Part shown: positions 11,121 to 41,265 of the stretch, in pieces
Numbering within the stretch: the first letter of the stretch is position 1
Layout of the letters: each line of letters starts with the position of its first letter
Assembly (NCBI GenBank): GCA_018303425.1
Contig: JAGVYF010000002.1
Location: 1 to 45,360, forward strand
Source of the DNA: Candidatus Woesearchaeota archaeon
GTDB lineage: Archaea > Nanobdellota > Nanobdellia > Woesearchaeales > JAGVYF01
Direction of reading: 5' to 3'
Length of the DNA: 45,360 nucleotides
Translations under genes and position numbers: made by a program
The notes under the pieces: generated by a model
Told to the model about the DNA's origin: nothing
Database searches by the model: none
What the model saw: the letters and a program-made list of their open reading frames with translations, nothing else

Positions 11121-12326
11121 ATGAAATCAAACCTTCAATATGAAACTTTAGAATTTAATAATTTAGGGAATGGTAAAATAAGAGCCATCCTGCTTAAATT
11201 TTTTTATTTTGATTTTGAAGTTAAAGAATTAGGAAGTTTTGATTTTTGTATAGAAAATGGCGCTATATCCGCAGATATTAACCAAAGTAAGCTCGAGAAT
11301 AAATTTGCCAAAGTTTTAACCAAAGGAATATCTAACTTAACAAGTTCATTAAGCGGTAAACCTGCAATATATTTACATAAAAATTCAGGCATTCCGTTAA
11401 TCGGACACAACGCATTCGGGATTATTGACAGAAACAGTTCAATTATTGAATTAAAACCCATAACTGGATGCAATTTAAACTGTATATATTGTTCTGTTGA
11501 TGAAGGAAAAAATTCAAAAAAAGTTGCAGACTTTATAATTGAAAAAGATTATATGGTTGAAGAAACAGAAAAACTTGTTAAATTTAAAGCTATTGATAAC
11601 ATTGAAATTAATATTGGTCCAAATGGCGAACCATTATTATATGCCGACATTATTCCATTAATCAAAGATTTAAAAAAGATTAAATGTATTGAAAGAATAT
11701 CCTTGAATACAAATGGCGTAATGCTGACTAAAAGTTTAATTAATGAACTGGCAATAGCGGGTTTAACCCAATTGAATATTTCGATAAATTCATTGGATGC
11801 AGTCAATGCTGAAAAGATTGCCGGCGGAAAATATAATAGTGAACATGTTCAAAAGATGGCAGAATATGCTGTTAAAAAATTAGATGTTGTTATTGCACCG
11901 GTATGGGTGCCAGAATATAATGATAAAAATATTCCGAATATAATCAAATTTGGTAAAGAAATTGGAGTTAAATACGTTGCAATTCAAAATTTTCTAAATT
12001 ATAAATTTGGCCGCAATCCTGTTAAACAAAAGCCAATGGATACTTTTTATAAAGAATTAAAAAATTTTGAAACAAAATATCAAACTAATCTAATATTAGA
12101 CAAGTCAAGTTTTAATGTCAGGGATACGAAAAAGTTGCCAGTGCCTTTCAAGAAAAATGAAGTTATAAAAGTTAAACTTGTATCCCTTGGAAAACTAAAC
12201 TCTGAAAAGCTCGCAATCGGGCGAGAAAGAATTGTTTCAGTTATCACTGATAAAAAAATTGGTCAAACTTTAAAAGCCAAAATTATAAGGGTTAAACATA
12301 ACATTATAGTTGCAAAAGAAGTATAA
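11121..12326 (+). CDS. Archaeal radical SAM protein with C-terminal TRAM/OB-like domain
   Basis: Radical S-adenosylmethionine enzyme of an uncharacterised archaeal family resembling COG2100. The Fe-S cluster motif CNLNCIYC (CX3CX2C, near residues 118-125) is followed by SVDEGKNSKK and DYMVEETEKL, as in that family. The (beta/alpha) barrel continues with NIGPNGEPLLYADI and LNTNGVMLTKSLI. The last 65 residues (NEVIKVKLVSLGKLNSEKLA to IIRVKHNIIVAKEV) resemble an RNA-binding TRAM-type beta domain, as in tRNA-modifying MiaB enzymes. That suggests an RNA substrate, but the reaction is unknown. The gene stands alone with its own TATA box. Confidence 0.85.
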   Translation: MKSNLQYETLEFNNLGNGKIRAILLKFFYFDFEVKELGSFDFCIENGAISADINQSKLENKFAKVLTKGISNLTSSLSGKPAIYLHKNSGIPLIGHNAFGIIDRNSSIIELKPITGCNLNCIYCSVDEGKNSKKVADFIIEKDYMVEETEKLVKFKAIDNIEINIGPNGEPLLYADIIPLIKDLKKIKCIERISLNTNGVMLTKSLINELAIAGLTQLNISINSLDAVNAEKIAGGKYNSEHVQKMAEYAVKKLDVVIAPVWVPEYNDKNIPNIIKFGKEIGVKYVAIQNFLNYKFGRNPVKQKPMDTFYKELKNFETKYQTNLILDKSSFNVRDTKKLPVPFKKNEVIKVKLVSLGKLNSEKLAIGRERIVSVITDKKIGQTLKAKIIRVKHNIIVAKEV

Positions 12327-16014: not shown

Positions 16015-16084
16015 TCCATAGCTTTTTTAGAAAAACATAGGAAAAACGAAAGACGTGCGTTCGCTTTGCTCACTTGGTCTTTAC

Positions 16085-16127: not shown

Positions 16128-16383
16128 TGCGAGGAGCAGGGTATTCGCAACTTGTAGACCATCAGAAGTGGGCTATACTGTGTCTTGCCCGCTGATTTTA
16201 GTCAAGCTTTTGCTTGGCAAAAAGGTTGTTTCGAACCTGCGTAGGCACTAAGCCAATAGGTTTCTTCAAAATCATCGCCCTTTCGGACTCTGCTCACCTT
16301 ACCTAAGCCTATCCCGTTTAGTCTAAAACTTTATTTCAGAGTATTGAAACGCCAGTTTCATTTGACCGCTCCGGCATCCCCGC
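16128..16383 (-). tRNA. tRNA-Leu(UAG) with three introns
   Basis: The acceptor strands GCGGGGA and TCCTCGC pair across 256 nt, with discriminator A and no encoded CCA. Removing three inserts leaves an 84-nt type II tRNA. The D arm is CCG...CGG with a GGTCAAA loop, the anticodon arm is ATAGG-CTTAGGA-CCTAT (anticodon UAG), the variable arm is GGC-TTAGT-GCC, and the T arm is GCAGG-TTCGAAC-CCTGC. The inserts are a 44-nt D-loop intron (contains a TGAAAC/GTTTCA hairpin), a 40-nt intron at canonical position 37/38, and an 88-nt T-loop intron near position 58/59 with a CAAC:GTTG helix at its ends. Exact splice points can shift by 1-3 nt because of A-runs. Confidence 0.88.
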
Positions 16384-16823: not shown

Positions 16824-17540
16824 TTAATATTCCGGTTTTCCTTCAAGAATGTGTTTGCATTTCAAACCTGTATCTGCCCAAATTTGAAAACCTTGTTTTT
16901 TCGTATCAATTGCAAAGAACATATCGTCATATGCATTTTTCTCTTCTTCATATCTAAATTCCACTTTTTCTAATACCCGCCTGGCAATCATTACACACCC
17001 AAGGCCAGATGCTTCAACTTTTATGAGTTTTCCAATCTCGACTTCTTCTCTGTACATATCTCTGATTAAGCAGTCATCTTTATTTGTTTCTATTATATTC
17101 CCATTTTCGTCGCATGCAGTCATTAATACAGGATAATAAACTTTGAAACCTAAAGCTCCTTTAGTCTTATAATATACTCCGCTAACAATCTCTTTTTGAA
17201 GTGATAACATTGTTGGAATTATTTCAGAAGTTAAAATTACATCTTGCTCCACGCTAAAAAAATAATCATAATCCCCATTTAAAAAAATTTGACGAAGTAA
17301 GTTTCTAGAGTTTACAATTGTTTCGCGAGGATTTTTGAATCTTTTTGATTTTATAACTGCATATCCTTGTTCTTGAATTAGATTAAAATAAGTATCACTA
17401 TGCGAATTATCTACAAATAAAACTTCAAAATTATCATAAATTAAACTTTTTAAGCCAATAATAAAATCGTTAAGGCAATATTTCATGCCTTCATATGTAG
17501 GTATTGCAATTAAAACTTTAGGAAAACAAGCCTTTTTCAT
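16824..17540 (-). CDS. GT2-like glycosyltransferase
   Basis: 238-residue protein with a GT-A-type nucleotide-sugar fold. The start is [19 protein letters not shown], followed by [10 protein letters not shown] and a candidate metal site FFSVEQDVI (Glu98-x-Asp100, in place of DxD). [14 protein letters not shown] and [20 protein letters not shown] resemble the acceptor region of GT2 enzymes. No transmembrane segment is seen, so it is probably cytoplasmic or peripheral, modifying a lipid, protein or polysaccharide. The ATG overlaps the L37e stop (ATGA), so it appears appended to the Lsm-L37e operon. A decayed paralogue lies at 19823-20589. Confidence 0.8.
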
Positions 17541-17707
17541 TTACCGGGTTTTTTCCAGTTGTAATGTTTTAATTTAGAAGATTTACCATAACCGCATGAA
17601 CTACAAACTGTTCTTTTAACATGATAACTATGTTTACCACACCTTCTACATCTTATATGGCTTTTGCCTTTACTATGTTTTCCTCTTGATGCTGTCCCTT
17701 TAGTCAT
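17537..17707 (-). CDS. rpl37e: Large ribosomal subunit protein L37e
   Basis: 56-residue basic zinc-ribbon ribosomal protein: [20 protein letters not shown] then CRRCG and [11 protein letters not shown], ending HYNWKKPGK. The four Cys bind zinc. It follows the Lsm gene by 29 bp, the standard archaeal Lsm-L37e pairing, and its stop overlaps the start of the glycosyltransferase gene. Confidence 0.95.
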
Positions 17708-20823: not shown

Positions 20824-20848
20824 AATTTGCCCCTGTAGCTTAGTCGTG
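20824..20848 (+). repeat. Duplicated 5' fragment of tRNA-Thr
   Basis: A 25-nt direct repeat (AATTT plus the first 20 nt of tRNA-Thr, GCCCCTGTAGCTTAGTCGTG) is repeated exactly at 20919-20943, where the complete gene begins, an offset of 95 bp. The copy ends within the D-loop. It is preceded by an A/T-rich TATA-like run at about 20804-20813. It may be the relic of a duplication or insertion. Confidence 0.75.
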
Positions 20849-20923
20849 ACGCATAAACTTTTAAAAAAAGTTTAATCAAAACATAGCAACCAAAACGAGT
20901 TTAGGTCACTTAATAATTAATTT

Positions 20924-21009
20924 GCCCCTGTAGCTTAGTCGTGGAGCAGTTGCCTCGTATGTCTATCAGAGACAGCAGCAGGTCGGGAGTTCAAATCTCC
21001 CCGGGGGCT
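20924..21009 (+). tRNA. tRNA-Thr(CGU) with 14-nt anticodon-loop intron
   Basis: The acceptor GCCCCTG pairs with CGGGGGC, with discriminator T and no encoded CCA. D arm GCT...AGC, anticodon arm GTTGC-CTCGTA/A-GCAGC, T arm GGGAG-TTCAAAT-CTCCC. A 14-nt insert at canonical position 37/38 (20960-20973) contains a GTCT/AGAC mini-hairpin. The mature length is 72 nt. The cytidylyltransferase gene starts 27 nt downstream, so the two may share a transcript. Confidence 0.92.
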
Positions 21010-33290: not shown

Positions 33291-33439
33291 GGGGCTATGG
33301 TCTAGTGGCTATGACATCTCGTTGACTTAGACAACTTCGTTGGCTAATAAAAACTGCGAAGCTGTTTTCAAATTCGAGAGGATCCCCGGTTCGAGAAGGA
33401 TATAGATAACACTAATTCATGAAAATCCGGGTAGCCCCA
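33291..33439 (+). tRNA. tRNA-Val(GAC) with two introns
   Basis: The acceptor GGGGCTA pairs with TAGCCCC, with discriminator A and no encoded CCA. D arm GTC...GAC, anticodon arm TCTCG-TTGAC/TT-CGAGA, T arm CCCGG-TTCGAAT-CCGGG, variable loop GGATC. Removing a 46-nt anticodon-loop intron (about 33328-33373) and a 30-nt T-loop intron (33395-33424, position 58/59) leaves a standard 73-nt tRNA. The first intron contains an AACTTCG/CGAAGCT-like pairing. Confidence 0.9.
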
Positions 33440-41065: not shown

Positions 41066-41195
41066 GGGGCTGTGGGGTAGCTTGGCTATCCTTCGAGGTT
41101 TGGGTCTAATGAGACATTTGTCAATGATAGCAAAAGACCTTGCGACCCCGGTTCGAAACACAAATTAATCTTGTGCGAATATCCGGGCAGCCCCA
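41066..41195 (+). tRNA. tRNA-Pro(UGG) with two introns
   Basis: The acceptor GGGGCTG pairs with CAGCCCC, with discriminator A followed by an encoded CCA (41196-41198), unlike the other tRNAs here. Anticodon arm CGAGG-TTTGGG/A-CCTTG (anticodon UGG), T arm CCCGG-TTCGAAT-CCGGG. A 32-nt intron lies at 37/38 (41105-41136), and a 24-nt T-loop intron lies near 58/59 (41157-41180) with a CACAA:TTGTG helix. The mature length is 74 nt. Confidence 0.92.
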
Positions 41196-41265
41196 CCATT
41201 TATATCCAAAAACAGTAACATTTATAAATGGATTAAAAAGATTCTCTAGATGAGGCATCTATACA

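Follow-up and report, generated by a model that had tools for sequence, protein, structure and literature searches.

T-loop introns at position 59/60 of Woesearchaeota tRNA genes and a dispersed hairpin element as their candidate source

Introduction

The origin and movement of archaeal tRNA introns are an open question. In eukaryotes, introners are mobile elements that create spliceosomal introns. For archaea, position 59/60 has already been listed among the sites of non-canonical bulge-helix-bulge (BHB) tRNA introns (PMC4090602), and tRNAs with multiple introns are known (PMC8450103). Transposition of tRNA introns is also known, in Thermoproteales (reviewed in PMC4033280 and PMC4090602), where similar introns occur in different tRNAs by a mechanism that has been called unknown (PMC4090602). 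We found no paper that describes T-loop introns of Woesearchaeota or a source element that duplicates its target; the search did not extend to preprints or to many subscription papers, and novelty is therefore provisional.

Here we analyse a 45,360-nt stretch of a Woesearchaeota genome (the window; contig JAGVYF010000002.1), together with the rest of that genome and its relatives, starting from an earlier note that had compared T-loop inserts in tRNA-Pro and tRNA-Leu. We consider it likely that the T-loop inserts are BHB introns at position 59/60 that would be spliced by the endonuclease EndA, and that they comprise at least three sets, including a putatively target-duplicating class I and a class II that appears to move among T-loops. 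Because the introns and what look like insertion sites of one element are found together in the same genomes, intron gain can be studied here step by step.

Results

A strict BHB motif in the T-loop of tRNA-Pro

Neither ARAGORN nor Rfam detected the unspliced tRNA-Pro(TGG) gene of the window (Table 1). Removal of both of its introns (32 nt and 24 nt) in silico, however, left a 77-nt perfect tRNA-Pro(tgg) that ARAGORN detected. The T-arm reads CCCGG TTCG AAA CACAA ATTAATC TTGTG CGAA TAT CCGGG, and its MFE fold is an exact bulge-helix-bulge, with the T-stem as outer helix, a 4-bp TTCG:CGAA central helix, AAA and TAT as bulges and CACAA:TTGTG as inner helix. The BHB cut rule places the site at 59/60, rather than at 58/59 as the earlier note had it, and gives a mature loop TTCGAAT. 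In the pairwise score and shuffle test this intron had no similarity to any other intron compared; indeed, several T-loop introns of this genome, that of tRNA-Pro included, are short and match no family.

Table 1. Coordinates of tRNA genes, introns and element copies in the window
Feature	Position	Strand	Remarks
Element copy 3′ of tRNA-Leu	16019..16079	+	Opposite to tRNA; adjoins second copy of tRNA 3′ end (TGCGAGGAaCAG); element model match 16019-16074, E 6e-7
tRNA-Leu(TAG) with T-loop, anticodon and apparent D-loop introns	16128..16383	-	Borders of D-loop and anticodon introns by eye only
tRNA-Leu T-loop intron, 88 nt, class I (element B: CAACCTTTTTGCCAAGCAAAAGCTTGACTAAAATCAGCGGGC...)	16142..16229	-	Element model match 16167-16228, E 1.4e-6
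Partial 5′ copy of tRNA-Thr(CGT) (GCCCCTGTAGCTTAGTCGTGACGCA), flanking direct repeat	20829..20853	+	30-nt repeat with 2 mismatches; ends at element
Element copy, type B, upstream of tRNA-Thr(CGT)	20854..20911	+	Element model match E 7.7e-9
tRNA-Thr(CGT), full copy, with anticodon intron, no T-loop intron	20924..21009	+	
tRNA-Val(GAC) with anticodon and T-loop introns	33291..33438	+	Anticodon by reading the arm
tRNA-Val T-loop intron, 30 nt	33396..33425	+	TTCG:TGAA central helix
tRNA-Pro(TGG), two introns, CCA encoded	41066..41198	+	7-bp acceptor and 5-bp T-stem paired; spliced form called by ARAGORN
tRNA-Pro anticodon-loop intron (37/38), 32 nt	41105..41136	+	TTTG:CAAA central helix by reading; removal gives loop TTTGGGA
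tRNA-Pro T-loop intron (59/60), 24 nt	41158..41181	+	Strict BHB, MFE fold; no element copy

Interrupted T-loops across the genome

This genome has introns at 59/60 in no fewer than 22 tRNAs, which make up about two thirds of all its tRNA genes that we detected: Pro-TGG, Pro-GGG, Val-GAC, Leu-TAG, Leu-TAA, Arg-TCT, Arg-GCG, Arg-TCG, Arg-CCT, Ala-TGC, Ala-GGC, Gly-CCC, Gly-GCC, Glu, Asp, Lys, Asn, Ile-GAT, Ile-TAT, Phe, Ser-GCT and Gln. Several of these carry two or three introns each. They were identified by lenient searches with a check for pairing of the 7-bp acceptor and the 5-bp T-stem, most by script and a few by eye, with anticodons of interrupted tRNAs mostly assigned by reading the arm; the inventory, being built from searches, is possibly incomplete, and its counts are minima. 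In this 936,881-bp, 96%-complete genome the Rfam cut-off is passed by only 9 tRNA genes out of 30 or more, and the amino acids they serve are limited to Val, Cys, Thr, Ser, Leu, Met and His. Standard finders will in the same way undercount the tRNA sets of many DPANN genomes, thereby distorting claims about missing tRNAs and host dependence.

That standard finders miss the interrupted genes might suggest pseudogenes or assembly errors, but we regard this as highly improbable: acceptor and T-stems are fully paired, the same introns recur in independent genomes, and without the interrupted genes the genome would have no tRNAs for about 11 amino acids. Indeed, our tRNA searches of this genome found no uninterrupted copy of most interrupted isotypes, and at 96% completeness the interrupted genes must therefore be functional.

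The T-loop introns span 13-130 nt, too short for a homing endonuclease, so that homing through an encoded endonuclease, one route raised in the earlier note, is ruled out by size. Neither the window nor any of seven element loci matched an Rfam model of group I or group II catalytic introns. The earlier note had also proposed aligning the T-loop introns of this genome and its relatives and looking for covariation, and position 57 does covary. Among 29 non-class-II introns of this genome and relatives its pair is G-C in 14, A-U in 8, G-U in 4 and unpaired in 3, a degree of pairing and covariation reached by none of 500 shuffles, and all four central-helix positions are paired in 26 of the 29. 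Motif and covariation alike are evident in the sequences, and they suggest why 59/60 is used so often: half of the motif is already present in the T-loop, whose TTCR (54-57) is able to pair with a YGAA close to the intron 3′ end.

The introns of tRNA-Pro and tRNA-Leu

The T-arm of tRNA-Leu(TAG) reads GCAGG TTCG AAA CAAC...GTTG CGAA TAC CCTGC. With the T-loop intron alone removed, ARAGORN still made no call, which fits the further D-loop and anticodon introns still present in the gene. As the earlier note described, the T-loop introns of Pro and Leu occupy the same site with like borders (TTCGAAACA and GCGAATA), and the helix next to the borders is paired with different bases (CACAA:TTGTG in Pro, CAAC...GTTG in Leu). 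The common descent that it proposed fared less well and was rejected as unproven, the Smith-Waterman score of the interiors lying below the shuffled mean (z = -0.6; 108 of 120 shuffles equal it). The likeness of the borders is mostly constraint, because the BHB motif and the universal TTCGA loop impose it, TTCG pairing with the CGAA of the intron.

We therefore lean towards independent origins, with borders made alike by convergence that the BHB motif would force on the TTCGA loop. The interiors are unrelated, the two introns are alike where the motif fixes bases (YGAA pairs with TTCR in most non-class-II introns), and the Leu intron belongs to a repeat family in which the Pro intron has no place. 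Against independence, both introns share, beyond the motif, ACA after TTCGAA and G..TA around CGAA. Moreover, the T-loop of tRNA-Pro in a relative (G037) holds a Leu-type element, so that the Pro intron here may be a shrunken copy; a shared origin followed by shrinkage of the Pro intron in this genome could account for these likenesses. A separate idea, that the CGAA at the intron 3′ end is a decayed duplicate of TTCGAA, found weak hints only, in the G037 tRNA-Pro, and we make no claim of it.

A hairpin element within T-loop and anticodon introns

The Leu T-loop intron resembles the anticodon intron of tRNA-His (z = 17), which points to a dispersed element family. This class I element of 50-60 nt lies in the T-loop introns of Leu-TAG, Gly-GCC, Gly-CCC, Ser-GCT, Ile-TAT and Ala-GGC, and is also present in two anticodon introns, those of His and Arg-TCG. 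It consists of a first hairpin (CAAcCTTTT..AAAAgCTTG), a linker (CAAAACA) and a second hairpin (GGC..CACC). Class I introns cluster with pairwise z of up to 19, and compensatory changes support pairing in the stem of hairpin 1. Further T-loop introns made of the element occur in Ser of G001, Gln of G026 and Pro of G037. The earlier note's proposal that T-loop introns spread among tRNA genes thus survives, for introns other than that of Pro and including the family of the Leu intron.

Since a loose fuzzy search returned mostly noise, a covariance model of the element was used in its place. About 138 candidates were scored per genome and weak matches are uncertain; the model matched 22 times in this genome, up to 42 times in relatives within the order, and few times or never in others. 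Seven element loci matched no relevant Rfam family. Exact patterns of the element and of class II matched no viral contig in IMG/VR, so at exact-pattern sensitivity nothing points to a viral carrier. In one tRNA of a relative (L324, G039:C29) the element follows GGTCTAATGGTTA in the D-loop region, apparently as a D-loop intron belonging to this family. Elsewhere, an element-like sequence repeats in tandem about every 78 nt (L118, G022:C48, about 17300-17600).

Some element copies outside introns are flanked by direct repeats

A tRNA gene lay within a few hundred bases at no fewer than 15 of the 38 element loci not chosen for tRNA proximity, where 2-3% would be expected by chance (our own estimate from tRNA density). 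Some non-intron copies sit between direct repeats of the target. In this genome there is an exact 30-nt repeat around the element at the start of RNase Z, a 15-nt repeat at the 3′ end of tRNA-Gln, and, at the 5′ ends of both tRNA-Thr GGT and tRNA-Thr CGT, imperfect repeats of 25-30 nt. Relatives have flanking repeats of 30-31 nt (G039), 18 nt and 27 nt (G036), 15-17 nt (G007) and 22 nt (G032); those at tRNAs include the 30-31-nt and 15-17-nt repeats at 3′ ends and the 18-nt repeat at one 5′ end. At one locus (L330) the repeat begins within the T-loop, between TTCA and AAT, and at another (L321) one tRNA 3′ end is present three successive times around two elements. When repeats were anchored at the hairpin end, 10 of 34 non-intron copies scored at least 14, as against 2.8% of random positions at the same loci, and in a second set 11 of 27 did so, as against 7.3%. 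The diverged repeat of the tRNA-Leu 3′ end (Table 1) was not recovered by this anchored test. Roughly a third of the copies outside introns have a clear direct repeat and more than half have no clear one, and the class I introns themselves display no clean target duplication.

Duplication length varies from about 15 to 60 nt, instead of the constant length expected of a MITE, and this variability argues against a simple or standard transposase. By reading, no terminal inverted repeats were seen; in inserts whose bounds are exact, a hairpin forms one end and a variable tail the other. Nor was an autonomous copy of the element seen. At the RNase Z locus, next to EndA (L127/L311, G000:C3:25860-26000), two tandem elements accompany the duplicated gene start of the 30-nt exact repeat, and the element supplies an in-frame upstream start (MANSSSPITNK) to RNase Z. 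The 5′ end of tRNA-Ser(GCT) is duplicated upstream of that gene (ACGTCGCGATCGCAT), with no clear element in between (L109, G000:C6, about 11200-11300).

The hairpin might instead be an immobile functional or processing RNA that is conserved beside tRNA genes, as its compensated stem and its proximity to tRNAs at loci not chosen for it would allow. We hold this to be unlikely, given the target direct repeats around the element, some of them exact over 30 nt, as at RNase Z and beside a tRNA, the serial insertions at one site, and the occurrence of copies in both orientations and at two intron positions. A mobile element is the reading we prefer. Repeat family, direct repeats and dispersal among tRNAs are read from sequence, and they suggest that class I inserts at the DNA level with target duplication, favouring tRNA genes and their loops, through a putative mobilising enzyme.

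A second family resident in T-loops

Class II introns (ATATT..GTGAGAAAGTC; TTCRAATATTRRCGC...RGTRAGAAARTC) are mostly 29-47 nt long, some reaching 96 nt, and occur here in six tRNAs: Phe, Ile-GAT, Asn, Ala-TGC, Asp and Glu. Their inner helix is compensatory, to an extent that no shuffle of 500 matched, and their motif is relaxed, with 3 bp and an asymmetric loop in place of a strict BHB. As for tRNA-Pro, in-silico removal restored a standard tRNA in many class II genes. In the sister genus the hosts are Ser-TGA, Ser-CGA, Ile-GAT, Ala-GGC, Val-CAC and Thr-CGT, whereas Ser-TGA and Thr-CGT of this genome have no T-loop intron. Across genomes the family resides in Ala, Gly, Ile, Ser, Gln, Pro, Thr, Val, His, Trp, Phe, Asn, Asp, Glu, Leu, Arg and other tRNAs, and its model matches, patchily, 66 of 287 genomes of the order, counting weaker matches that were not inspected. 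In one genome (G218) the class II introns of Arg-TCG and Val-GAC are identical at 86 of 91 positions (95%) while the 5′ exons are unalike, and the pair is a case of movement between tRNA genes at one site.

Exact-pattern matches of class II across GTDB species fell in Woesearchaeota and Nanoarchaeota records, with one labelled Nomurabacteria (MFTJ01000022.1), which has a tRNA-Ile with a class II intron. Judged by eye this tRNA reads as archaeal; the record is probably a misbinned archaeal contig and was set aside. In another record (JAHJSS010000075.1) an intact tRNA-Ser(GGA) is followed by a second T-arm and 3′ end, with a class II intron in the second copy only.

For class II, we give even chances to spread either at the RNA level, through reverse splicing into T-loops and then reverse transcription with recombination, or through gene conversion between T-arms, as opposed to insertion of DNA. 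Near-identical sequences share one position across tRNAs that differ widely, we noticed no repeats flanking them, and the models match T-arms only; the model included the T-stem, however, and copies elsewhere would thus be missed.

EndA

A single endonuclease gene matched PF01974 (EndA; E 4.1e-27, 176 aa), next to RNase Z, and its best PDB match was the catalytic subunit of N. equitans (3iey_A). The PF01974 profile, which a diverged protein could escape, found no second EndA subunit in 13 genomes. According to one report (PMC6379350), homotetrameric EndA favours strict motifs, and relaxed ones are cut efficiently only by enzymes of the heteromeric and epsilon types. The relaxed motif of class II is in tension with this background for a single-subunit EndA.

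Discussion

T-loop introns would be removed from pre-tRNA by EndA, which may recognise a BHB with the T-stem as its outer helix, and an RNA ligase would join the exons. A fresh insertion beside the palindrome TTCGAA would readily yield a BHB and with it a spliceable intron, and class II could pass between the T-loops of non-homologous tRNAs by reverse splicing or conversion. The most likely overall reading is that an archaeal analogue of introners is at work, an element that inserts at tRNA loops and so gives rise to introns spliced by EndA. In its more specific form, to which we give slightly better than even chances, Woesearchaeota hold an archaeal introner, a hairpin element that inserts preferentially in tRNA loops with target duplications of about 15-60 nt. 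Insertion would then have one of two outcomes: an intact tRNA with a duplicated fragment, or an intron in the T-loop, D-loop or anticodon loop that could be spliced, since the BHB would be completed by the TTCGAA palindrome of the loop. If true, this would be a DNA-level source of archaeal tRNA introns.

How do these introns compare with known systems? The motif of tRNA-Pro and of most non-class-II introns is that of described archaeal BHB tRNA introns (PMC4090602, PMC8450103), with the same predicted enzyme, but in this Woesearchaeota genome 59/60 is the dominant non-canonical site. As with the transposed introns of Thermoproteales, near-identical or closely similar introns occur in non-orthologous tRNAs of one genome, identity being 95% for Arg and Val in G218, 89% for Ile and Ala in G002 and 78% for Gly and Ser in the genome studied here; here, however, the phylum is different, one site dominates, and one family is also found outside genes with target duplications. 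The disrupted tRNA-Thr of Caldiarchaeum (PMC3293823) likewise has an insert flanked by a tRNA 5′ fragment and a full tRNA, coupled to intron gain, but that insert is a 1.8-kb element with a predicted recombinase at one tRNA, whereas here it is a non-coding sequence of 50-60 nt at many tRNAs in many genomes. Finally, like eukaryotic introners (PMC11782384), the class I elements are dispersed and non-coding and are themselves introns; they differ in their predicted splicing by EndA at tRNA loops, in having no terminal inverted repeats that we could see, and in their variable target duplications.
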